A stretch of 26,779 nt of DNA from Pilasporangium apinafurcum (taxonomy: Eukaryota > Oomycota > Peronosporomycetes > Pythiales > Pythiaceae): assembly GCA_001600495.1 (NCBI GenBank), contig BCKE01000069.1, positions 75,223 to 102,001 on the forward strand, read 5' to 3'. A program made the position numbers and the translations under genes. A model generated the notes under the pieces. The model saw only the letters and a program-made list of their open reading frames with translations. It searched no databases and was not told the DNA's origin. Of the stretch, positions 6,212 through 23,714 are shown in pieces; positions within the stretch are counted from its first letter, which is position 1; each line of letters begins with the position of its first letter.

Positions 6212-8299
6212 ATGCGCAACTACCCAGCCAAATTTCTGCAGAAGAAATCTTCGTCGCGGTATTTTTGTGAGGAACTCGAGGAGGATTTGTCTTCACGGAT
6301 TGCGTCCACCAACCACGTCGATGCGGAAACTGATCAATTGACGCAGTTCATTGCCGCCAATGTGATCGGCAAAGACACACTCTTTGACTCACCATTCGGT
6401 CAAAAAGCGCTATGTTATGCAGATTACACTGCAAGCGGCAAATCTCTTGCGTGTATCGAAGATTTTATCCGCCAGGAAGTGCTGCCACTATACGGGAACA
6501 CGCATACGACCACATCGATTACTGGGTTGCAAACCACGTGCTACCGTCATGAAGCCCGGCAGATCATCGCGCAGGCTGTGAATGCCAAACTCGATCAGGA
6601 TTGCGTGTTGTTTACCGGTCAGGGCAGTACGAGCGCGATCAGCAAGCTTGTTAACATCCTTGGCCTGAATGTGCCTGATGAACGGAGCTACAACATCCCA
6701 AAACAACGACGTCCTGTGGTGATTGTAAGCCCATTTGAGCATCATTCTAACTTGCTTCCATGGCGAGAAAGCATTGCTGAGGTCGTCATGATCCCAGAAA
6801 ATGACCATGGACGGATGGACTTAAACGCATTGCGTCAGAAACTAAGAGAATATAAAGATCGGCCATTGAGAATAGGGTCTTTCTCTGCTGCGTCGAATCT
6901 CACAGGGGTATTGGCGGAAGTCGATCATGTGTCAGCGATTTTGCATGAGTATGGTGCGTTAGTATTCTGGGATTATGCGACTTGTGCTCCTTATGTGAAC
7001 ATCGACATGAATCCCATCGTTGGTGGATCCATGCGGCCATATGTCTACAAGGACGCAATCTTCATTTCTGGTCATAAGCTCATTGGAGGTCCTGGTTCGC
7101 CTGGCGTCTTGGTCGTGAAGGAGAAACTGCTCAGGAACGCAGTACCAACCGTGCCCGGTGGCGGCACTGTCTTCTTTGTCACAGAAAAAGATCATCGATA
7201 CCTATCGAACCCCATCGAACGAGAAGAAGGCGGCACACCTGACATCATTGGCAGCATTCGTTTAGGTTTGGCGTTCCAATTGAAGCAACGAGTCGGTCCT
7301 GCAAACATCATGGCGATTGAGAAGCGACACGTCCAGCGCGCACGGGTATCTTTGAAGAAAAATCCAAATATTGTGATCCTTGGAAGAAACGATGTGAATC
7401 AATTGCCCATTTTCTCGTTCTTAGTGCGCTTTGGTGATCGTTTCCTACACTATAACTTTGTCTGCGCGCTGCTGAATGATCTCTTTGGAATTCAAACACG
7501 CGGCGGATGTCAGTGTGCTGGCCCCTATGGTGCTCGCTTGTTGGGCTTGAAGAAACACGACATTGTAGTACTAGAAAACGCTATGCTTAACGGCAATGAG
7601 ATATTGAAACCAGGCTTCTCACGCATGAGCTTCCCATATTTTATGGCCGACGCTGATGTCGAGTATATCTTGGAAGCTGTACATTTCGTTGCGAACGAAG
7701 GCTGGAAGTTTCTACCACAGTATAAGTACAATCCCAAGAATGGTGCCTGGAATCACAGGACGCGATTTAACGAGTTTCCAAACCGTAAGTGGCTTTCAAG
7801 TTTCACTTGTGGTAACCAACAACAAGCTTCCAAGAGAAAACGATTAAGTATTAGCTCATTACCCACAGAGAAACCAAGACATGTGACCGATCTGCGCGCG
7901 CATCAGCAGGAAAACTTGACCCTAGCAAAAAAACTCGCGAAAGACAGCTTTGGCAAGCGATTTGCACGCATTTTCCAGCACCGGTCACTACCAAGCATGG
8001 TGGACAAGAAGCAGGAATCGATGCGATGGTTTGTCGACCCAGCAGAAGCCTCCGATGCAATCATCCGTGGCGTGAAACCAGGGTTGAGTAGCAAAATTTG
8101 TGGCCCATGTCAGCCACAATTGTATTTAACAAACAAGCTGAAAAATCAATATTGTGAGAGTGAAGACATACCGCTGATTCGACCGAATGCAACTACATTG
8201 GAGGCGTTGGACTTGGAAGCCATCACGCTTGGAAGCGATCGAAGCATGAACAAACGAGACAACTTCTCGTATTCATTGGTAGACGATATTTTTGTGTAG
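6212..8299 (+). CDS. Class V aminotransferase / cysteine-desulfurase-like protein
   Basis: A single intronless frame of 695 residues starts at ATG 6212. It is a PLP-dependent fold-type I enzyme of the class V family. The Schiff-base lysine is in SGHKLIGG (K289), preceded by a conserved FWDYATCAPYVNIDMNP block. An RGGCQCAGPYG motif (C433, C435) sits where cysteine desulfurases carry the sulfur-accepting cysteine. The likely activity is removal of sulfur from cysteine or a related substrate; this is family-based inference. It is a close paralogue of the neighbouring minus-strand gene across nearly its whole length, including the post-catalytic RWFVDPAEASDA segment and the linker. It ends before the PP-loop domain present in that neighbour. 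The two stops are 185 bp apart, tail to tail. Its short divergent C-terminus (about residues 660-695) has no counterpart. Confidence 0.85.
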   Translation: MRNYPAKFLQKKSSSRYFCEELEEDLSSRIASTNHVDAETDQLTQFIAANVIGKDTLFDSPFGQKALCYADYTASGKSLACIEDFIRQEVLPLYGNTHTTTSITGLQTTCYRHEARQIIAQAVNAKLDQDCVLFTGQGSTSAISKLVNILGLNVPDERSYNIPKQRRPVVIVSPFEHHSNLLPWRESIAEVVMIPENDHGRMDLNALRQKLREYKDRPLRIGSFSAASNLTGVLAEVDHVSAILHEYGALVFWDYATCAPYVNIDMNPIVGGSMRPYVYKDAIFISGHKLIGGPGSPGVLVVKEKLLRNAVPTVPGGGTVFFVTEKDHRYLSNPIEREEGGTPDIIGSIRLGLAFQLKQRVGPANIMAIEKRHVQRARVSLKKNPNIVILGRNDVNQLPIFSFLVRFGDRFLHYNFVCALLNDLFGIQTRGGCQCAGPYGARLLGLKKHDIVVLENAMLNGNEILKPGFSRMSFPYFMADADVEYILEAVHFVANEGWKFLPQYKYNPKNGAWNHRTRFNEFPNRKWLSSFTCGNQQQASKRKRLSISSLPTEKPRHVTDLRAHQQENLTLAKKLAKDSFGKRFARIFQHRSLPSMVDKKQESMRWFVDPAEASDAIIRGVKPGLSSKICGPCQPQLYLTNKLKNQYCESEDIPLIRPNATTLEALDLEAITLGSDRSMNKRDNFSYSLVDDIFV

Positions 8300-8484: not shown

Positions 8485-11400
8485 CTAGGAATTAGTTGCT
8501 ATTGCTTCAATGTCACCATTTACCTCGGTACTATTCGCCACTTTACCATTGGCAACGGGCTGTTTTCTCGGTTTCGTTGACGGAGCTTTCGGTCGAATCT
8601 GTTTGGCTTGTTCAATGCGGGTTCGAATAGCGTTCATCGGTTCATAGATGGAGTCATCCATGAGCGGCAAAAGTGCACGTCGAATACTATTGTACATGTC
8701 AGGATACAAACTCTCCTCTTGTGCAAGCATTTTCTTGACACGATGGCGCTCCTTTGGTTCCTCAAAGCACGCTGGGCAGTTTTCATTGATCACAGGCAGT
8801 CGAGCATCATAGGCAAATTTCTTGAGTTCATGCTCACGTACATATGCCAATGGCCGCAAAATTTCGACGTCTTTTTGATCATTCCAGTATTTCGCCTTCA
8901 TGGTACGCAATTGTCCATTGTGGATAGCAGACATGAGGAAACTCTCGGCCAAATCATCTAGATGCTGCGCCAAAACCAACTTGTTAAATTTGTGCGTACG
9001 ACAACATGTGTACAACAAGCCACGCTTCATACGCGAACAGTAACTGCAGATCGAATCACCCGATAATTCACACGCTGCACGTTCGATGATATTCTCCGAT
9101 AGGTAGTGATATTCGACACCAAGTGCTTTCATGTAATCCTTCAGTGGACTTGGATCAAATGATGGTGTTTGCGGATCCACGGTCGCACAGGCCAACACAA
9201 ATTTGACTGGTGCACGTTTTTGAAAACTGAGTAGAATATGAAGCAAACTTAAAGAATCTTTTCCACCAGACACCCCGAGAAGCAATCGATCGCCATCCTG
9301 GATCATTCCCCACTGCATCATCGCCTGACCAACCCAGCGCATAAGCTTCTTTGGTGGCGTTGGAAAGAGCTTTGTCGCAGTAACTTTCTGTGTCATCTGG
9401 GTCGTAATTTCTTGCACATGAGAGAGACTAACTGTGGCACTGCCATTTATGGTATCATTGGTGTGGCTAACGTCAGATCGAAGAGGGTACTTGCCTCCAG
9501 TCTGACGATCATCGGACACTATACCATTGTCTTTGAATGAAGGAGGACAGCAGTTTTGTGTTTGGCACGCTGCCCCAGTACCCGAAGTGAGCGACGTGAC
9601 TGCTACTTCCAGTGCCTTCAAAGTACCATTTTTAGCTTCAACTGGATTCGCAGCAATGTCCCATTGGTGATGAAGTGTGCCTGTGAGATATCGCTCCGGA
9701 TGGTACGGGCCACAAATTTGAGAGCTAATAGCAGGTTTTACACCCTGTCGAAGTGCATCGGAAGCTTCCGATGGATACACAAACCAACGTAGTTCTTCAT
9801 ATGACTCTTCTAGCATCTGTACAGCAGAAGTAGCTACCGAAATCGTATTCTTGGTACAATCTTCGGCAAGTTTCCTTGCCAACACGAGATTTTCTTGTTG
9901 ATGGGCTCGCAGGTCAAGCTCATCGATACTCACACTTGTTTCACTTACAGGTGCTGGGCGTTCCATGTCCGTTGCAAAATGTGTTAGCCATTTACGGTTT
10001 GGGAATTTTGTGAAACGCGTTGTATGCTTCCATGCCCCACTCTTATGATTAAATTTGTATTGCGGCAAAAATTTCCATCCTTCATTCGCAACGAAATGAA
10101 TGGCTTCCAAAATGTAGTCCACATCGGAATCTGTCATAAAATATGGAAAGCTTATGCGAGAAAACCCTGGACGCAGCATTTCTTTTTTCTCGATCAGCGC
10201 ATTCTCCAGTGCCAGTACATCCTTTTTCTTTAATCCCAACAATCTAATCCCATATGGACCAGCGCACTGGCAGCCTCCACGTGTTTGGATGCCGAATAGA
10301 TCATTCAGCAATGCACACACAAAGTTGTAATGCAGGAACCGTTCTCCGAAGCGTACAAGAAACGAAAATACCGGCAGTTGATCCACGTCATCGCGTCCAA
10401 GCAACACGATACTCTCGTTCTTGCTGAGCGATGCACGCACACGTTCCACATGCCGCTTTTCAATCATCATGATGTTTCGAGGTCCCACTCGTTGCTTCAA
10501 TTCAAATGCAAGACTGAGGCGAATACTGCCAATGATATCCGGGGTGCCGCCTTCCTCGCGTTCCGCTCGATTGGACAAGTATCGATGATCTTTTTCAGTG
10601 ACAAAAAACACAGTTCCACCACCAGGAGCTGTTGGCACCGCATTCCCAAGCAATCGCTTTTTCACAACCAGCACACCAGGCGAGCCTGGACCACCGACGA
10701 ATTTGTGGCCAGAGATGAAAATGGCGTCTTTGTAGACGAAAGGGCGAAGCTCGCCACTCACCACAGGGTTCATATCAATATTGACGTACGGTGCACATGT
10801 CGCGTAATCCCAGAATGCCAAAGCACCATGTTGATGCAAAATAGCGGTGATCATGTCGGTGTCGGACAAAATTCCCGTTAGATTCGAAGCTGCAGAGAAT
10901 GAGCCGATTTTCAGTGGACGGTCTGCAAATACTTGCAGTTTTTCGCGTAACACTTCCAAATCCATGTGGCCACGGTCATTCTCTGGAATCATAATCACTT
11001 CTGCAACACTTTCCCGCCAAGGCAAAAGGTTTGAGTGATGCTCAAACGGACTCACAAATACCACAGGACGGGGGGTACCTGGTGGCAACGGGATATTCAG
11101 TCCAAGCGCCGTCACCAGCTTGCTCACTGCGCTTGTGCTACCCTGGCCCGTGAATAATACGCAATCTTCTGCACCTCGTCCAGTGATCTTTGCATTAACT
11201 GCTTGTGCGATGATCTGTCGTGCTTCATGACGGAAACAGGTGGTCTGCAGCCCTGTGATTGATGTTGTCGTGTGTGTATTGCCATACAACGGCAACACTT
11301 CGTCACGAATGTAATCTTCAATGCACGCAAGCGGCTTGCCACTGGCCGTGAAATCTGCGTAACAGAGCGCTTTCTTCCCATACGGAGACTCAAACAGCGT

Positions 11401-11586
11401 CGTTCGGCCGATCAGATTGCGTGCAATATACTGCACCAACTGGTCTGCTTTCGCATCCTGTGCTGGTGCGACGTGGTTCGCTGATTCGATGCGTTCGCTC
11501 AAATCCTCCTCTAACTCTTCACAGAACACGCGCGTGGATGCATTTACTGTTGCGAGTTCTTCTTCTTCTGCACGCAGCGTCGTCAT
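8485..11586 (-). CDS. Cysteine-desulfurase-like protein fused to a TtcA-like tRNA thiolase
   Basis: An intronless frame of 1033 residues starts at ATG 11586; the frame extends slightly upstream to a TTG only. Residues 1-600 are a class V PLP enzyme with the lysine in SGHKFVGG (K295) and RGGCQCAGPYG (C439, C441). After a linker of low conservation (about 610-730) comes an N-type PP-loop ATPase of the TtcA/Ctu1 type. It has SGGKDS at 773-778, a CSYC pair (C847, C850), the LAQHLDDLAESFLM and ILRPLAYVRE blocks, and a NENCPAC pair (C937, C940). TtcA proteins use such cysteines to hold an iron-sulfur cluster while 2-thiolating a tRNA cytidine. The fusion therefore places a sulfur donor and a tRNA-thiolating enzyme in one chain. 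The substrate base (C32 or U34) cannot be decided here. The tail (about 995-1033) is low-complexity and Lys/Pro-rich. Confidence 0.85.
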   Translation of the reverse strand: MTTLRAEEEELATVNASTRVFCEELEEDLSERIESANHVAPAQDAKADQLVQYIARNLIGRTTLFESPYGKKALCYADFTASGKPLACIEDYIRDEVLPLYGNTHTTTSITGLQTTCFRHEARQIIAQAVNAKITGRGAEDCVLFTGQGSTSAVSKLVTALGLNIPLPPGTPRPVVFVSPFEHHSNLLPWRESVAEVIMIPENDRGHMDLEVLREKLQVFADRPLKIGSFSAASNLTGILSDTDMITAILHQHGALAFWDYATCAPYVNIDMNPVVSGELRPFVYKDAIFISGHKFVGGPGSPGVLVVKKRLLGNAVPTAPGGGTVFFVTEKDHRYLSNRAEREEGGTPDIIGSIRLSLAFELKQRVGPRNIMMIEKRHVERVRASLSKNESIVLLGRDDVDQLPVFSFLVRFGERFLHYNFVCALLNDLFGIQTRGGCQCAGPYGIRLLGLKKKDVLALENALIEKKEMLRPGFSRISFPYFMTDSDVDYILEAIHFVANEGWKFLPQYKFNHKSGAWKHTTRFTKFPNRKWLTHFATDMERPAPVSETSVSIDELDLRAHQQENLVLARKLAEDCTKNTISVATSAVQMLEESYEELRWFVYPSEASDALRQGVKPAISSQICGPYHPERYLTGTLHHQWDIAANPVEAKNGTLKALEVAVTSLTSGTGAACQTQNCCPPSFKDNGIVSDDRQTGGKYPLRSDVSHTNDTINGSATVSLSHVQEITTQMTQKVTATKLFPTPPKKLMRWVGQAMMQWGMIQDGDRLLLGVSGGKDSLSLLHILLSFQKRAPVKFVLACATVDPQTPSFDPSPLKDYMKALGVEYHYLSENIIERAACELSGDSICSYCSRMKRGLLYTCCRTHKFNKLVLAQHLDDLAESFLMSAIHNGQLRTMKAKYWNDQKDVEILRPLAYVREHELKKFAYDARLPVINENCPACFEEPKERHRVKKMLAQEESLYPDMYNSIRRALLPLMDDSIYEPMNAIRTRIEQAKQIRPKAPSTKPRKQPVANGKVANSTEVNGDIEAIATNS

Positions 11587-11761
11587 TGCGGTCGCCAAAG
11601 GTTAACGTTTCTGCTGATGCTTGCACCTCTTCCACCCAAATCAAAACTGGGACCAAGAATGATGTTCACTTGGTGAACTATAGAAATGTATTTAGATATA
11701 GATTAGAAACTATCTATCTGGGCATGAAAGGGTATTTATATAAAATGGATCCATCTTTTGC

Positions 11762-12831
11762 ATGAATGGCTTCACGTATTCCCTCTCAATCAACACTGTG
11801 CTCAGGATACCCCAACTCTCCACAGAATTTCCGGATAGCCGTTTGTATCCAATCTCTGCATTTAGAGAGATGGCGTTTCCAGAATTGAAGCCATCACTTG
11901 AGTTTGCTGTGGCTCTTGGACGGGTAGGTATCGATTGGTTGAACTTCAGCAAGTAACGTTGAAAATGGTCATTTGCCTTCCTCATTATATACAAACTCGT
12001 ACAGGAGGATGACTTCAGGCTTCTGTGGATCTGTTGTTGGTTACAGCCTCCTGATATATGTACCATTCCACTGATGTTGCAATATCTCTTGCAGATACCG
12101 TTGTGGCTGAACGGGTCCAATAATTTCAGCACGAAGAGCAGAATTCGATCCATGTTGAAGTGCGTAAGGTGCTCCATGTATGGATGTTTATCGTAGTTGT
12201 CACTTGCTTGTCTATCTATATCCAACGCCTGTACTCAGGGAGAACATGGGTGCAAGGAACAGTATCAAATTGAGGGGTACCGTCGCACAACAAACACCGG
12301 CATCAATCGCTTCGTTCCACCACGCAAGCATAAAGATTGAACTTTACCGATCCATATTCAACATTCTTTATGATAGTGCCTTACTAAAAAATCATCTCGA
12401 ATTGCTTCGCATTGAATGCAATGAAACCATCCAAACTGTGAACAACGGGATCACCATTCTTTCGCAGTTTTACAGAGATCATACAGCAACCGGGAGACAT
12501 TGCTATATGCCGAGCAGACATCACACAATTAACCAGCGGCCAAGAACAACTCGTGAAGGCTGTCATGGAAGAATGCCGTCGCAGTGGTGGGTCACTATAC
12601 TTTGAGTGGTATCCGAAATTATTCTATACGTTCCGTGAGGGTTCCGGTATGTGCTATGTGTTGATGACAGGTGCTCACACTGATTCGATCTCAATGCAGT
12701 ACGGAAACCCTGGTAGTGTGCTGCATCTCGGCGTGGACGATGTTTTCGTGGGCTTCTTCGTGGTGAATAATATCATGCATGCTGACTGGATCTTTACCAC
12801 CTACGAATTCGTGATGCTGATTGATCAATAA
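11762..12831 (+). pseudogene. Decayed aspartic protease, copy 1
   Basis: No single frame is open, but pieces in all three plus-strand frames follow the order of a pepsin-like aspartic protease. A propeptide-like N-terminus lies at 11762-11956. A segment near 11990-12060 resembles the strand and catalytic DTGS region (SVDLLLVTAS, then a stop and YMYHS). A C-terminal open piece at 12439-12831 has QLTSGQEQLVKAVMEEC, YPKLFYTF, GMCYVL and LHLGVDDVFVGFFVVNN, the last resembling the LGD-x-F-LR-x-Y closing block. Stops and frameshifts break the gene between these parts, and the catalytic Gly of the DTG motif is not preserved. It is homologous to the copy at 16615-17960, which shares the C-terminal block and the VMEE segment. 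The family assignment rests on motif order, not a search. Confidence 0.5.
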
Positions 12832-14405: not shown

Positions 14406-16382
14406 ATGGCGGAGCATTATCCGCGTGCGATGGTCTCCGAGTCGAGTGCCAATTCGCTCTCATCCTCCACTTATGAGAACAGTGAATTGAGCAACAGCAA
14501 ATATGGAGTCTCGAATAGTAATTATAATGGAGACTCAGGCGTGATGCCACGCCCCACAGAATCTGGCGGTCGGTATAGCATGCGCCCTACGGAGATGAAG
14601 ATCACGGCCGTCGACCCGGAAGACGGATCCCCACCAGAGCAGAAGAAGGATTACAAAGGCCGATACCGCGTAAGTTCTTAGCATATTATTGGATATGTCT
14701 TCATTGATCAAATCACTGACGGATGTGTTTGTGTATATAGACCTGGCCTGGTATTTTGTTATTGCTTGCGCTTGTATGCGCTGGTGCGGCACTGATTACA
14801 CTGCAGGCAATTGACACACACGACCGTGCCATCACACAGCGGGAGCGGTACGAATTAGCGGAACAGGCGGGTCGTGCCATCAAAGACGGGAAAACGAGCG
14901 ACGGCGATATCATCTCGGATGATGGGCAAGTTGGGAACCCGAAAGCGTATCCGGATATGGGTTGTGAACTCCCCAACTACGTGAGCAAGGAAGGGCAGAT
15001 CTATGCTGTGGCCAAGAACGGCACCGAAGTGTCGGTTGGCATCAAGGGCATCAACTGGTTTGGCATGGAAACGTACGTTTTTCCCTTTATTAAACCGTTT
15101 ACTTGGATGCTTCGTGGGTCTGATTGCTCACGTCTCTGTTTGTATTTATTGATGCAGTGGGCTACGTATTCCATTTGGATTGTGGGAAAACCAGGAAAAT
15201 GGTACATCAGTGGTAAGTTCATTTTCTATGAAAGAAATCGCGTGTTTCAAAAAAGGGTTGCTAATGGGATGACGAATTTGCTGGCGTTTATTTGTGCAGT
15301 ACGAGATTGCGTCGTTCTTGGCACGTAACAAGTTCAACAGTGTTCGGTTGCCAGTGTGTATCTCGAGCATTTTGAGCAATGACCCACCAGAAAAATCGCT
15401 TATCAATGTCAACACGAACCGTGCGATCGACATTTCATCCTACATGTCGACCCTCCAGTCGATCATTCAGGCGCTCGGATACCGCCAAATCACGGTCATG
15501 ATCAGTATCCATACACTGTCAACGAAAGCCTCGGGTGGCGCATGGTATGACGCGGACTTGGGGGTTTCTGAAGACGATTTCCTGAATGCAGTGGACATGT
15601 TAACAGAGAACCTCTGCAGTTCCAAATACTGGAACATTCTCGGACTGGATTTGAAGAACGAACCTCATACATCTTCTTGGGGTGGTGCTGACCCAGATTG
15701 GGTGCAAGGTGCGGCCTTGATCGGCAATCGCATGCTGAAAGGTTGCAGCAATTGGATGGCGTTCATCGAAGGCACGAATGGCAACTATCCGATCACATTG
15801 ATGGGTGTGGAAGATGTCTACTACGATTGGTGGGGCGGTGGCTTAGAACATGCGCTAGAGACGCCCATAGAATTAGATACAAATGACAAAATCGTGTGGG
15901 CGCCGCATTACTACAACACGGGTGTCAATCCAGCGTGGTACTTTTACGAACCCGGTGCAGGTTTTGTCGAATTAGACGATGAGACGCTGAAAACGAATGT
16001 CGAAGCGACGATGGATGCCATGTTTGCGTACTTGACCAAAGAGAAGAAGTATGCGATGGTACTTGGTGAGTTTGCCGGGCTCTACGCAAAGGACGCACAT
16101 CCAAAAAAAACCACAAAGCGCACAACTGACTTTACGATCGAAGTCATGCTTGAGCGCGGTATGGCTGGTGGATACATGTGGTCTCTGAACCCAGAAAGTG
16201 CGTATCAGTACAATCCCGCCGATACGCAAGGGACGTTTACAGAAGGTTTACTGGAAGATGATTGGCTATCACCCGACAAAGTGTTTCTAAACGGCATGGC
16301 GGCGATGGATGCACTGCCGAATCTGAAGAAGTTCCCTTGCTTCCCTGAAGTCATTGAATCCTCATCGTCCTCGTCTTCGTAG
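14406..16382 (+). CDS. Membrane-anchored GH5 glycoside hydrolase, copy A
   Basis: Four exons, 14406-14669, 14741-15072, 15158-15212 and 15300-16382, encode 577 residues. The introns are 71, 85 and 87 nt, with GTAAGT or GTACGT donors, all in phase. Residues 1-88 are a Ser/Asn-rich, charged tail with no signal peptide. Residues 89-109 (TWPGILLLLALVCAGAALITL) are a single transmembrane anchor, so the catalytic part should face outside (type II topology, inferred). The GH5 domain starts near KGINWFGMET. It has the acid/base glutamate in LKNEPHTSSWG (E338) and the nucleophile in LGEFAG (E474), the usual NEP and GE motifs of clan GH-A. It ends in a serine run. The substrate is probably a beta-glucan of the cell wall (cellulose or beta-1,3-glucan); the subfamily was not determined. 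It shares near-identical patches with copy B. Confidence 0.9.
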
Positions 16383-16825
16383 ATTAATCAGACACGAAAT
16401 GGCGACAATATACTTTGTTGCTTTGACAGCCTATACAAGAGAAACTAGGAGGCAAAGAGGACATGTAAGTTTATATAGCATGACGCGCATTTTGTTCCAG
16501 ATTTACTGGTGTTTCATTCCCCACCAAACTAGACTAAATGCAGTAGTTACAAACTTCAGCCACATTCAATTTCGATCATACACAATCATGATCAGATTCC
16601 CTGTATGTCAAAAGTCATTGGCAACTCATCCATGTAACTTTCTCGACACAAATACAACTCCAGATCGTGTTGTGACAAAGTGAATGTGTGCAACGTGTGT
16701 CGATGAACATCAAGAATTCGTAGCTGTTGAAAACTGGATTAGTGTACATGACGTTGTCGACCACGAAGTAGCTTGTGAAGATATCACCTACTCCGAGATA
16801 CAGCACACTACCATAGTCACCACGT

Positions 16826-17519
16826 TTAACCTTTATCCCCCAGGTGTTCTGTACCACGCGTGACACAAAACACGTGGAGAAAATAGTTACACTCATCCGT
16901 TTCCGGAATCATAGCAGTGAGGACTTTTATCACCTCAGTTTTTGCTTTCGAGTACCAATTCATTCTTTTTCCTCGTGAACGCCTCGAGTCTCCTCTTTTT
17001 CTTCACTTGGTCGATGAAGAGTCTAAAAATGTTTATTGCGGTGCTGATGTCATGGTCCCACAATGTGCGATGGCATTCACTATTTTTGCAGTGTCACACA
17101 CCATAAAGATCCTTACCGCCAATTTCTTCGTTGAAGCGACACTCAATAGATGGGCGTGAGGTGATAAATACTTCAATTCAATATGTTTCGCTATTGAGAA
17201 GCTGGAAACAATTCATTCAAGAGACGCCACCGAAATGAGAAACTCTCAAACTCCTGAGAAATACCTTGTAGTGTATACTTGATTTTTCTAACTCCATATA
17301 TCAACCTTTTTTCCCATCCAAGGTGTATAATTTCATTTTTCTGGAAACGCGATTGATCGTCAACATGGCCTTTCAAGATGATTGCACACACAGCAAGAGC
17401 CACCAAGGAGTCTCTCCATTCAATGAATCCTAAACTCCACTCTCAAGGTAATCTTAGTTTTAATCTTTATTCCCACATCATTTGTACAACGCGTTGTACA
17501 AGTGGGGAATAAAGGTTAA
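16826..17519 (-). mobile_element. TTAA-flanked TIR element (piggyBac- or Sola3-like, non-autonomous)
   Basis: The element is bounded by TTAA at 16826-16829 and 17516-17519. Its inverted termini read CCTTTATCCCCCA (16830-16842) and, on the other strand, CCTTTATTCCCCA (17515-17503). The similarity continues imperfectly for about 50 bp; both ends contain TGTAC-x-ACGCGT followed by ACAAA and GTGG. TTAA duplication and termini starting with CC are known for piggyBac, and TTAA targets also for Sola3. No transposase gene is visible in the 686 bp, so it would have needed a helper. On its minus strand it holds a Met-less open stretch (17406-17191) and the Fanzor-like remnant (17174-16935). It sits inside the protease copy 2 pseudogene, and the other protease copy acts as the empty-site reference. 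Confidence 0.7.
16935..17174 (-). pseudogene. Fanzor (TnpB-like) C-terminal remnant
   Basis: Minus-strand translation gives TSRPSIECRFNEEIGG, then KDLYGV, one in-frame TGA, then HCKNSECHRTLWDHDISTAIN and IFRLF, ending at a stop at 16935. This is the layout of the C-terminus of Fanzor/TnpB RNA-guided nucleases: a TS-x-C start of the zinc ribbon, the second Cys-x(3-4)-Cys pair, then W-x-RD-x-x-A-x-NI, whose Asp is the third RuvC residue. Here the pair is C-x4-C and the Arg is His (WDHD). It then shows a basic tail with RLEAFTRKKN, as Fanzor1 proteins often end. The RuvC-I and RuvC-II parts and the N-terminus are missing, so it is not an active nuclease. The family call rests on motif recognition only. 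Confidence 0.6.
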
Positions 17520-18896: not shown

Positions 18897-20897
18897 ATGA
18901 GCGATAATTTAGCGTCTCAAGACCTCACATCTGCGTCGCAACTAAGCGATGGCGTCTCCGCTCCAACGTATCGCAACAGTGAGATTGCGAGCGGTATAAA
19001 TCGCGCATCCTCAGTCCACAATAGCAATGGGATCGTGGACGCTGAATTGATGCGAGCGACCGAGTCAGGTGGCCGAGCAAGTACGACTTCTTCCAGTGGT
19101 CGGATGACCGAGATGAGGCTTATGGCAGTGGACCCAAGTGACAGTGCACCGCCGGAGCAGATGAAAGACTACAAAGGACGCATTCGTGTAGGATTTGTCA
19201 ATAAATCATTCATCTTTATGAGTGCTCGATTATTGACTAAATTACTTGTTGCTCTTGATAGACTTGGCCGGGAATTCTACTCATGCTGGCGATACTCGGT
19301 GGTGCCTGTGCGCTCATCACGTGGCAATCGATTGAAACAAGCGATAGCGCGAAGATTCGACGTGCACGATACGAATATGCGCAGGAACAGGATCGTGCAA
19401 TTAAAGACAACAAAACGAACGATGATGGTGACATTGTCTCCGATGATGGGCAAGTCGGAAATCCGAAATCGTACCCGGATATGGGCTGCGAACTCCCGAA
19501 TTACCTTAGCAAAGATGGTCAGATCTATGCCGTGGCCAAGAACGGTACCGAAGTGGTGGTCGGTATCAAAGGTGTCAACTGGTTTGGCATGGAAACGTAC
19601 GTTGTGCTTTTGCGTTGAGCTTGAACGGTAGCAGTGACTGATAAAGCTGCTCTTGTACCTTTTTGATTGTATTACAGCGGTCTCAAAATCCCGTTTGGTA
19701 TGTGGGAAAACGAAGAGAATGGCACAACAGCTGTAAGTAGCCACGTTTTCTTGTGTTCTGTGAACTCTATTTTCGAATTAATTGTCTTATGTGGCGATCT
19801 CTGATGTGATTATATAGTACGAAATCGCGGCATTCCTGGCTCGCAACAACTTCAATAGCATTCGTTTGCCCGTGTGCATCGAGAGTATTTTAAGCGATGA
19901 AGGACCGGACAAATCACTGATCAACGTGTATTCGAACCGCGCAATAGATATTACGTCCTACATCTCGACAATCCAGAGTATTGTCGAAGTCATGGCATAC
20001 CGGCACATCACAGTTATGATCAGTTTACATACACTCACAACCGAGACATCAGGCGGCGCATGGTACGATGCAGATTTGGGCGTCACTGAGGAAGAATTCC
20101 TCACCGCTGTCGATACGCTGACGAAAAACTTGTGCAGTTCCAAATACTGGAACATTCTCGGACTGGATTTGAAGAACGAACCTCATACATCTTCTTGGGG
20201 TGGTGCTGACCCAGATTGGGTGAAAGGTGCGGCCTTGATCGGCAATCGCATGCTCGAAGGCTGTCCGAGCTGGCTGGCTTTTGTTGAAGGGACGAATTCT
20301 GCTTACGAAATCACGTTGATGGGCACAACTGCCACATACTATGACTGGTGGGGTGGTGGGTTGGAAAAAGCGGGTGACACACCAATTACGTTCGACGTTG
20401 AAAACAAACTCGTGTGGGCACCCCATTACTATACGACTGCCGTTAGTCCAGCATGGTACTTTTACGAACCGGGAAGCTACACGGAACTAGACGATACCAC
20501 GCTCAAATCCAATATTGAAGCGACGATGGATGCCATGTTTGCGTACTTGACCGAAGAGAAGAAGTATGCGATGGTACTTGGTGAGTTTGCCGGGCTCTAT
20601 TCGAAGGACGCACATCCAAAAAAAACCACAAAGCGCACAACTGACTTTACGATCGAAGTGTTGCTTGAGCGTGGTATAGCTGGTGGATACATGTGGTCTC
20701 TGAACCCAGAAAGTGCGTATCAGTACAATCCCGCCGATACGCAAGGGACGTTCACAGAAGGTTTACTGGAAGACGACTGGTTGAGTCCCAACACAGAGTT
20801 TCTGAACGGTATTGCAGCGTTAGATGTGCTGCCGAATCTGAAGAAGTTCCCTTGCTTCCCTGAAGTCATTGAATCCTCATCGTCCTCGTCGTCATAA
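18897..20897 (+). CDS. Membrane-anchored GH5 glycoside hydrolase, copy B
   Basis: Four exons, 18897-19187, 19262-19596, 19678-19732 and 19818-20897, encode 586 residues. The introns (74, 81, 85 nt) fall at exactly the same places as in copy A. A 97-residue Ser-rich cytosolic tail precedes the anchor TWPGILLMLAILGGACALITW. The GH5 domain has KGVNWFGMET, the acid/base E348 in LKNEPHTSSWG and the nucleophile E483 in LGEFAG, and ends in a serine run like copy A. Around the two catalytic glutamates and at the 3' end it is nearly identical in DNA to copy A, although intervening coding sequence and introns have diverged. The role should match copy A: cell-surface beta-glucan processing. Whether it acts on the oomycete's own wall or on a host wall is not visible from sequence. 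Confidence 0.9.
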
Positions 20898-21690: not shown

Positions 21691-23714
21691 ATGCTGCCTG
21701 TTTTGGAGCCATACTCGCCCAATCCCAGTTCATTATCTTCCTATGACCGTCAATCGGAACAGCCGTGGCGCATCTCGGTGCTTTCGCAACATGGTCCCGT
21801 GAAACCCGTCCCGATCGAACAGGAGCTGCGCGCGTTGTACTCCACTGAGGATGACGAAGAAAATCCGTCCACACGAGAACAGGCCACGGCCATGCGGTTG
21901 GTTGTGAAGAAGGAAAGCAAGTTTGAGAAAAATTCCGACTATAGGGGGAAATATAGAGTACGTAGTTGCATTGAGCCATGACTTAGTATTATGATGGGCT
22001 TAAACCAAACTAACCGCTGCTGTTGGTTGCCAGAGGTGGCCAGGAATATTGCTGCTCCTGCTGGTATTAGCATTAGCGGGTTATATGATCGTCGATAATG
22101 CACAGAAGGCCTATGAAACGCGTGTAGCCCGAGGAATAGTCTACCAGAAGGCAGTAAAAAACCGACGATCCATACAGGACGGCCAGGACGATGAAAATCC
22201 CATTGTTTCAGATGATGGCGAAGTTGGCAACCCGAAAAGCTACTCGACCACGACAAGTAAGCGAACGCAATGCACCCATACTTGGATATCCTCAACCATC
22301 ACCCACTAAATGCGTTTGCTTGGTTATAGCATGCGAAATGCCGGACTACCAGAGTAAAAATGGACAAATCTATGCGGTCTCGGCGAACGGTACCGAAGTT
22401 CCTCTCAACATCAAAGGAATCAACTGGTATGGTTAATTTTTTGTAGAGCGCTTAGTTATATGGGGATATTCATTGAGGTATGCACATACAGGTTTGGTAT
22501 GGAAACAGCGCTGGCGTGTCCTTTCGGTCTGTGGGAAAACCAAATGAACGGCACTACTGCGGTATGGTTTCTTCTGTTGTAGCTCTGATGTGACTTCATC
22601 TAAACTGTAGTTATCTGTTTTATAGTATGAAATCGCCTCATTTCTGTCGCGCAACAATTTCAATGCTGTGCGGATACCTGTTTCTATCGAGAATATTTTA
22701 AACAACAACCCACCCGCGGACGGAATCATCAACAAGCAAAGCAACCGCGCTATCGACATTACTAACTTCATTTCGACGCTTCAGTCCATCGTGAAAGCAC
22801 TCGCCTACCGCAAGATTGGTGTACTGATCAGTTTGCACACCTTGACTAATGCTGATTCAGGTGTCAACTGGTATGATGAATCACTTGGTGTCTCACAGGA
22901 TGATTTCTTAAATGCGGTGGATACCATTTCCAAGGACTTGTGCGGCTCGGATTATTGGAACGTCATGGGTTTAGATTTAAAGAACGAACCACAAACTGCT
23001 ACATGGGGCACAGGTGATGAAGACGACTTTGTTGTAGGCTGTGAGAAAATTGCCAATGTCATGCACGAGAATTGTCCGCAGTGGCTTGGTTTTGTTGAAG
23101 GAGTCGTCGATAGTCACAAAATCACGATCGATGGTACGGTGATGACCTACTATGATTGGTGGGGCGGTGGTTTGCAAGGTGCAGGCGACGTCAAACCGCA
23201 GTTTTCGATCGCTAACAAGCTTGTATGGGCACCTCATTACTATACTACAGCCGTATCCCCACAAATGTACTTTTATGGTGACGGCACTACAGCTGACTTT
23301 TCGACGTTTGAAGAACTCTCCGATGACAACTTGAAAAGCCGAGTAGAAGTGACGATGACCGATATGTTTGGCTATTTAGTGGAAGAACATACCTACGCAC
23401 TACTACTGGGTGAATTTGCGGGATTATATACGAAAGACGCGCATCCACAGCTTACAACCAAGCGCACAACCGATAAAACCATCGAGGTGATGCTTGAGAA
23501 AGGCTACACTGGCGGGTTCATGTGGTCACTCAACCCAGAAAGTAAATACGCGTACAATCCTGCGAATGTCGAAGGTTCATTCACAGAAGGACTATTGGAG
23601 GACGATTGGTTGACGCCCAACGATGACTTTTTGAACGCGTTTACTCCAATGGATTCGATGGCGAATCTACGCAAGTTCCCGTGCTTTGAAGTAGAAGGTG
23701 ACGGGAGCGCATAG
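21691..23714 (+). CDS. Membrane-anchored GH5 glycoside hydrolase, copy C
   Basis: Five exons, 21691-21957, 22034-22256, 22330-22426, 22492-22561 and 22626-23714, encode 581 residues. The introns are 76, 73, 65 and 64 nt and all preserve frame. The layout matches copies A and B: an 89-residue charged tail, an anchor (RWPGILLLLVLALAGYMIV), then the GH5 domain with KGINWFGMET, the acid/base E340 in LKNEPQTATWG and the nucleophile E482 in LGEFAG. It is the most divergent copy. It has an extra intron in the stalk, and its second-domain intron sits 14 nt earlier than in A and B (inside the NWF codons). It also reads ALACPFG where A and B have GL(R/K)IPFG, and it lacks the terminal serine run. ATG 21691 is used because the upstream open frame begins only with TTG. 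Confidence 0.88.

Follow-up and report, generated by a model that had tools for sequence, protein, structure and literature searches.

The window, by which we mean the whole 26,779-nucleotide stretch of Pilasporangium apinafurcum DNA analysed here (contig BCKE01000069.1, positions 75,223 to 102,001), encodes on its minus strand a short cysteine-containing peptide flanked by inverted termini. Is this the trace of a eukaryotic RNA-guided nuclease and, if so, what has the element carrying it retained? The earlier note had read the frame as the C-terminus of a Fanzor/TnpB protein riding in a TTAA-target transposon of an oomycete, with a guide RNA overlapping the element end. The oomycete host is supported by 50 elicitin matches in this genome as against none in 14 control genomes, elicitins being a mark of oomycetes.

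The minus-strand frame and its relatives

The frame runs from 17174 to 16935 and comprises 79 residues and a stop codon, with one internal TGA at 17094-17096; it contains both LWDHDISTAINIFRLF and the basic RLEAFTRKKN tail, as had been described. Of 350 candidates for the fragment in the 36.47 Mb genome (136 contigs), 150 were scored, giving at least 150 matches, the best 20 of which are 80-100% identical to it and cover residues 1-72 or more. A RuvC-I query likewise gave at least 150 matches (150 scored of 189 candidates, with some loci counted as two pieces). In longer copies, the window-type C-terminus extends upstream into a frame matching SpuFz1 (8gkh), an experimentally verified Spizellomyces Fanzor1 of solved structure, and the Pfam family Cas12f1-like_TNB. 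The longer copy L032, the single query searched against SpuFz1 (a 475-residue frame minus its first 19 residues, with one X), matched it with E=5.9e-6; its Cas12f1-like_TNB match (1.4e-4, 22.4 bits) falls under the 26.3 cut-off, and that of L041, whose ORF lacks RuvC-I, lies barely above it (7.3e-6, 26.5 bits). With this match and the many relatives in the same genome, the identification as a Fanzor/TnpB C-terminus is confirmed.

The published Fanzor/TnpB motif is D-X(125,275)-[TS][TS]-XX-C4 zinc finger-X(5,50)-RD (Bao and Jurka 2013, PMC3627910), and a TDG motif in WED and a DPG motif at RuvC-I have been described for Fanzor1 (Yoon et al. 2023, PMC10711439). Both copies checked, L027 and L032, follow the former arrangement and possess the latter two motifs, having TDG, DPG, DEFRTS, CxxC...C4xC and RD/HD. 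The D-to-TS spacing is 174 residues in L027 and 173 in L032, followed by TS.LCCAC and CKNSEC and then by RD 4 residues on in L027, where a W-to-R change creates the earlier RD, or by HD 6 residues on in L032. Judged by these motifs, the element family is Fanzor1-type. No uninterrupted full-length Fanzor frame was seen among the fetched copies free of long N runs, which we count against a supply of the nuclease in trans, and a scan of viral contigs confirmed no relative among 139 pattern stretches.

The Fanzor-derived part of the window copy, 16938-17132 on the minus strand, corresponds to the last 65 codons of a Fanzor1-type nuclease gene and encodes the distal half of the zinc ribbon (CKNSEC), RuvC-III (WDHDISTAINI) and the basic tail, the one TGA included. 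The adjoining 17133-17174 does not code for Fanzor. It gives the first ~14 residues of the frame (EVFITSRPSIECRF), a peptide of the element's 5' leader that is also found upstream of the ORF in L036, and the founding deletion brought it into frame with the Fanzor tail, at a junction that recurs in L001-L021. The description of a Cys-rich ribbon followed by RuvC-III therefore holds for RuvC-III and the distal ribbon half and fails for the leader-derived residues. Set against the RuvC-I, II and III of a complete nuclease, half a ribbon and RuvC-III with an internal TGA make the window copy a remnant, not a Fanzor gene. Its reading frame shows the pattern of change of unselected sequence (N/S relative to neutral: singleton 0.95, shared 0.75), and its retention is thus better explained by position beside or within an RNA module than by coding.

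Element ends, target site and size classes

The element is a non-autonomous, Fanzor-derived unit of 687 bp at 16829-17515, with its sense on the minus strand and its 5' end at 17515. It sits in gene-like sequence whose paralog, at 12562-12824 on the plus strand, is uninterrupted at this point: by blastn, 12562-12686 aligns with 17645-17528 (66% identical, E=2e-4) and 12711-12824 with 16813-16700 (70% identical, E=3e-10). The gap between the two blocks is 24 bp in the paralog versus 714 bp at the element, a difference of 690 bp, or 687 + 3. Neither the paralog nor the pieces of the interrupted sequence have a Pfam match. A terminal palindrome at the 5' end (17459-17515, minus strand; inverted repeats I1, I2 and I4, and the 5' alignment) has as its outer arm the terminal inverted repeat (TIR) CCTTTATTCCCCAC. 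The inverted termini reported around the fragment are real, as repeats I1 and I2 show and as does the TIR pattern, which has 115 exact matches genome-wide versus 0 for the reversed control.

Comparison of the two ends of each copy places the target site duplication (TSD) of the window copy, TAA on the sense strand, at 16826-16828 on the 3' side and at 17516-17518 on the 5' side, where a T precedes it. Both ends could be read in 33 copies, and 28 of these entered the TSD test, L013 (left end not TTAN) being left out together with L024, L036, L040 and L056, four loci of various classes with a different 5' end. Left and right ends carry the same base after TA in 22 of these 28 copies, where shuffling gives a mean of 14.4 (p=3e-4). 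The exceptions are L019, L031, L037, L041, L044 and L050, and if L031, whose 5' end is odd, and L050, in which the N part is duplicated, are set aside, the figure is 22 of 26. With L047 also left out, 27 copies remain, and in these TA is preceded at the left end by T in 26 and at the right end by T in 15 and C in 12. For comparison with the TA target of Tc1/mariner elements, right-end TA is present in 27/27 two-ended copies, and the next base is also equal between ends in 21 of them. Taken together, the two ends are consistent with a duplication of 3 bp, TAN, that follows a T. A TTAA duplication, as had been supposed, is rejected because the right end is C-TAN in 12/27 copies and the paired data agree with TAN.

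A remnant of a piggyBac-type (TTAA) transposon is for these reasons highly improbable. The ends do often read TTAA...TTAA, in the window copy as elsewhere, and the genome contains three piggyBac-type matches, but the C-TAN right ends and the above-shuffled agreement of the post-TA base speak for TAN and not for the TTAA duplication of piggyBac, and the one piggyBac locus of the three that was read (L061) is without the family's TIR. There is next to no chance that the frame belongs instead to some other zinc-finger family, for instance one with an Elf1-like ribbon, and that its likeness to Fanzor is a coincidence. Profile searches with the window fragment alone were empty for NCBIfam and gave in Pfam only Zn_ribbon_Elf1 (E=0.028, under the cut-off); the HMM check that had been proposed for the translated fragment thus produced no Fanzor hit, and the Fanzor/TNB signal comes from larger relatives only. 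Those longer copies, which run upstream into the SpuFz1- and TNB-matching frame with the Fanzor motif set, refute a chance likeness.

Copies of the family fall into three size classes, with ends common to most copies read. The ~0.7 kb class comprises 21 loci including the window (L001-L021), whose matches all cross the same leader-tail junction. A ~1.5 kb class (17 loci) is devoid of RuvC-I and has the N part joined to RuvC-II, the zinc ribbon and RuvC-III. In the core-bearing class of ~2.4-2.5 kb, L039 and L059 have the standard TIR at both ends, several core-bearing loci being too short to show the 5' end. The search of the source genome for larger relatives, suggested earlier, thus returned longer copies with the nuclease core and common TIRs, and parent copies of the window element are supported by a RuvC-I/II/III and zinc-ribbon core in copies sharing its ends. 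We consider it probable that the window element arose by internal deletion within a Fanzor1 transposon family, losing the nuclease and keeping both ends and the 3' guide cassette.

In the RuvC-I-less class (L035, L037, L038, L041, L042, L044, L046 and ten others), ~300 residues including RuvC-I have been dropped and the Fanzor N-terminus is fused in frame to the downstream part. Exactly 18 nt separate reference positions N172 and C4 at 13 of the 17 loci, which looks like a single founding in-frame deletion. In seven copies, picked for the length of their frames, 302-387 codons are still open. A consensus-based count over the 17 copies, among them the 7 picked for long open frames, puts shared changes at 0.44 of neutral and singletons at 0.78, a hint of constraint. 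Over the same codons, however, pairwise dN/dS is 0.36 for RuvC-I-less copies (13 of 17), 0.35 for core-bearing copies and 0.42 for ghost copies (see below), the ghost and RuvC-I-less ranges overlapping, and we claim no selection for this ORF because its value is hardly below that of the ghosts. In a tree of the C part, 13 RuvC-I-less copies group together (support 40), and in a tree of the N part six of eight core-bearing copies fall among 13 RuvC-I-less copies (support 53).

The 3' module: guide RNA or palindromic end

The 3' 121 nt of the element and its TSD (16826-16946, minus strand) form a guide-RNA-like (reRNA or omega-RNA) module of three predicted stems, recognised by cmsearch with model R1 at 124.9 bits, the window copy being part of the model. 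By folding and alignment, stem-loop 1 (16918-16937) has the ORF stop codon TGA (16935-16937) as its first triplet, and stem-loop 2 (16896-16907, UCCG-GAAA-CGGA) has a GAAA loop. After a 6-nt linker follows a hairpin of up to 30 pairs (16827-16889; also recovered by cmsearch), formed from the 3' TIR and closed by TA of the duplication. This terminal stem is imperfect and partly mismatched in the window copy, which counts against guide function there. RNAalifold run on the alignment found both stem-loops again, recovered the terminal stem in part, and added a weak outer three-pair helix. Fold z-scores are -10.6 to -12.3 for L004, L036 and L059 and -3.0 for the window copy.

Published Fanzor1 reRNAs are described as having three stems, with TIR and TSD within the scaffold, and as running on for ~15 nt after the TSD (Yoon et al. 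2023), and the linker that joins stems 1 and 2 is reported to be 6 nt long (Saito et al. 2023, PMC10432273). By analogy with the former, the predicted guide of the window copy would be the first ~15-20 nt of right flank past the TSD (16806-16825, minus strand).

Covariation was assessed in 42 of 56 loci, after dropping eight without a 3' end, five with length out of range and L047. Across these loci 93.3% of cells are paired, as against 40-45% when columns are slid by 1-3, and doubly changed cells number 36 versus 16.6+/-3.2 in shuffled alignments (0 of 500 shuffles). One-sided changes on the sense strand of the 3' module give G-U in 106 cells and A-C in 37, where a neutral spectrum would give 55% G-U; excluding the pair in which G-U is the commonest state leaves 89 of 123. 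The 5' palindrome (31 of 34 rows, without L013, L029 and L031) has 27 G-U versus 28 A-C cells and one doubly changed cell. The contrast of 106:37 with 27:28 has Fisher p=0.0012, with cells that share ancestry, and by distinct pair types it is not significant (26:18 vs 11:14, p=0.32). RNA folding together with these counts shows a predicted three-stem structure that covaries across copies, and supports the idea of a guide RNA overlapping the element end, in that the putative guide-RNA module spans the 3' TIR and TSD bases.

The principal alternative is that the element is an ordinary MITE: it would have arisen by neutral internal deletion, its palindromic ends would be transposase binding sites only, and its Fanzor tail and stems would hitchhike with no RNA function. 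The neutrally evolving ORF remnant and the failure of pairwise dN/dS to separate the classes agree with this account, as do the damaged terminal stem of the window copy and the palindromic nature of both element ends, which have the TIR in common. Nonetheless, covariation and, in cell counts, the sense-strand excess of G-U over A-C characterise the 3' module and not the 5' palindrome, and stem-loops 1 and 2, although outside the palindrome, have 94.8% and 98.2% of their cells paired. A MITE of this kind is therefore, in our estimation, rather unlikely. We favor the Fanzor1-derived reading, and since the 3' module fits the published Fanzor1 guide-RNA layout, the window element is best read, by analogy, as a "ghost": an element with no working nuclease and a putative guide-RNA cassette usable in trans. 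It has the inverted repeats of the Fanzor copies, no complete Fanzor gene, and a scaffold that predicted structure and covariation indicate to be kept.

Known systems, proposed mechanism and transposase search

Ghost loci of Spizellomyces are reported to have inverted repeats and omega-RNA and no Fanzor ORF, their RNAs being active with SpuFz1 (Saito et al. 2023). Like ghost Spu-1 of Spizellomyces punctatus as described there, the window element combines Fanzor-type inverted repeats, no complete Fanzor gene and an omega-RNA-like 3' region, with no transposase found between the repeats. Unlike those ghosts, it keeps the last 65 Fanzor codons, and the family adds long palindromes at both ends and a third class, in which N-terminus is fused to C-terminus. 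The SfAV Fanzor1 element is likewise presented as a transposon that carries Fanzor alone, has TIRs and uses a short target of TTA type (Yoon et al. 2023; Bao and Jurka 2013), and as having a three-stem reRNA-type module with TIR and TSD in the scaffold (Yoon et al. 2023). It is non-autonomous, virus-borne and present in two copies in its genome, no deletion series being mentioned in the portions of these two accounts used here, and its duplication is given as TTAN versus TAN in the oomycete family. Oomycete Fanzor1 families PUl, PSo, PCa, PRa and Ala have been described (Bao and Jurka 2013) and are set beside the window family by description; some of them (PUl-4) are said to encode Fanzor alone, with Mariner-type TIRs and a TA duplication, and the passages on them used here contain no guide-RNA analysis. 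A literature search of titles and abstract openings, with many journals outside its range, found no oomycete ghost or amplified RuvC-I-less Fanzor. Fanzors, ghosts and TIR/TSD-containing guide RNAs are already known, and what is added here is a further member from an oomycete.

We propose that the element is moved by a cut-and-paste transposase encoded elsewhere, which would insert it at T|TAN and so duplicate TAN. Its 3' module would be transcribed as a guide RNA whose scaffold ends with the TIR hairpin, TSD bases closing the stem, and ~15-20 nt of flanking host DNA past the TSD would serve as guide. Fanzor protein from a larger copy could then act in trans with this RNA and, after excision, cut the matching empty site, the predicted target-adjacent motif being TTAN; for GtFz1, a TAM of TTAAN is reported (Saito et al. 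2023). Under this proposal, the cut at the empty site would lead to repair from the filled copy and so restore the element. Whether Fanzors help Fanzor-less elements to survive was raised and left as a possibility by Saito et al. (2023), and a series of core-bearing, RuvC-I-less and guide-only copies in one genome offers a test of it. For an oomycete Fanzor, the family also supplies a computed guide-RNA boundary, the predicted TTAN motif and naturally occurring variants of the scaffold. A more speculative extension, which we think improbable, is that the copies form a dispersed self-writing guide library, with flank-made guides read in trans by a few nuclease-bearing copies, and that the RuvC-I-less protein acts as a nuclease-dead competitor or regulator; if so, it would do in a eukaryote what TnpB-derived repressors do in bacteria.

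No transposase turned up between the element ends in the searches carried out. Transposase-domain matches in the genome comprise 59 DDE_3, 3 DDE_Tnp_1_7, 6 DDE_Tnp_4 and 11 DDE_1, none of which lies inside a TIR pair in a by-eye comparison of positions with 100 of the 115 exact TIR places; the DDE_3 matches at C17:529440 and C8:657822 fall outside the nearest element ends. The window also contains, at ~223-266 on the minus strand, an end of a second repeat family, also seen in L044, L049 and L051, which has the outer TIR CCTTTATTCCCC in common with the Fanzor element, followed by a different palindrome TCTCCCACCGGTGGGATA (26 genome sites at <=3 mismatches). This family may use the same transposase, and no transposase was recognised by eye in the frames of at least 120 residues in L049 and L051. 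One of the second-family ends, at C2:196009, has a DDE_3 match 3.4 kb inward of it, at C2:192648. Some second-family ends that carry the same variant form pairs facing opposite ways at distances of 19-37 kb (C5:786954/823528, C13:332985/351760 and C51:87626/110666 of the same assembly, G000), which suggests inverted segmental duplications. Five equal-scoring DDE_3 matches of mariner type, each with a 407-residue open frame (C12:703798, C35:332966, C51:93364, C68:53710 and C106:18134, G000), are possibly a recently active transposon.

Elsewhere in the window, three tandem related genes on the plus strand (14406-16382, 18897-20897 and 22049-23714), the Fanzor element lying between the first two, are of GH5 cellulase type (Pfam PF00150 on two, the third by frame resemblance). 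The neighbouring genes at 6212-8299 (plus strand) and 8485-11598 (minus strand) look by eye like paralogs, and a Pfam search of the latter found class-V aminotransferase and PP-loop domains.
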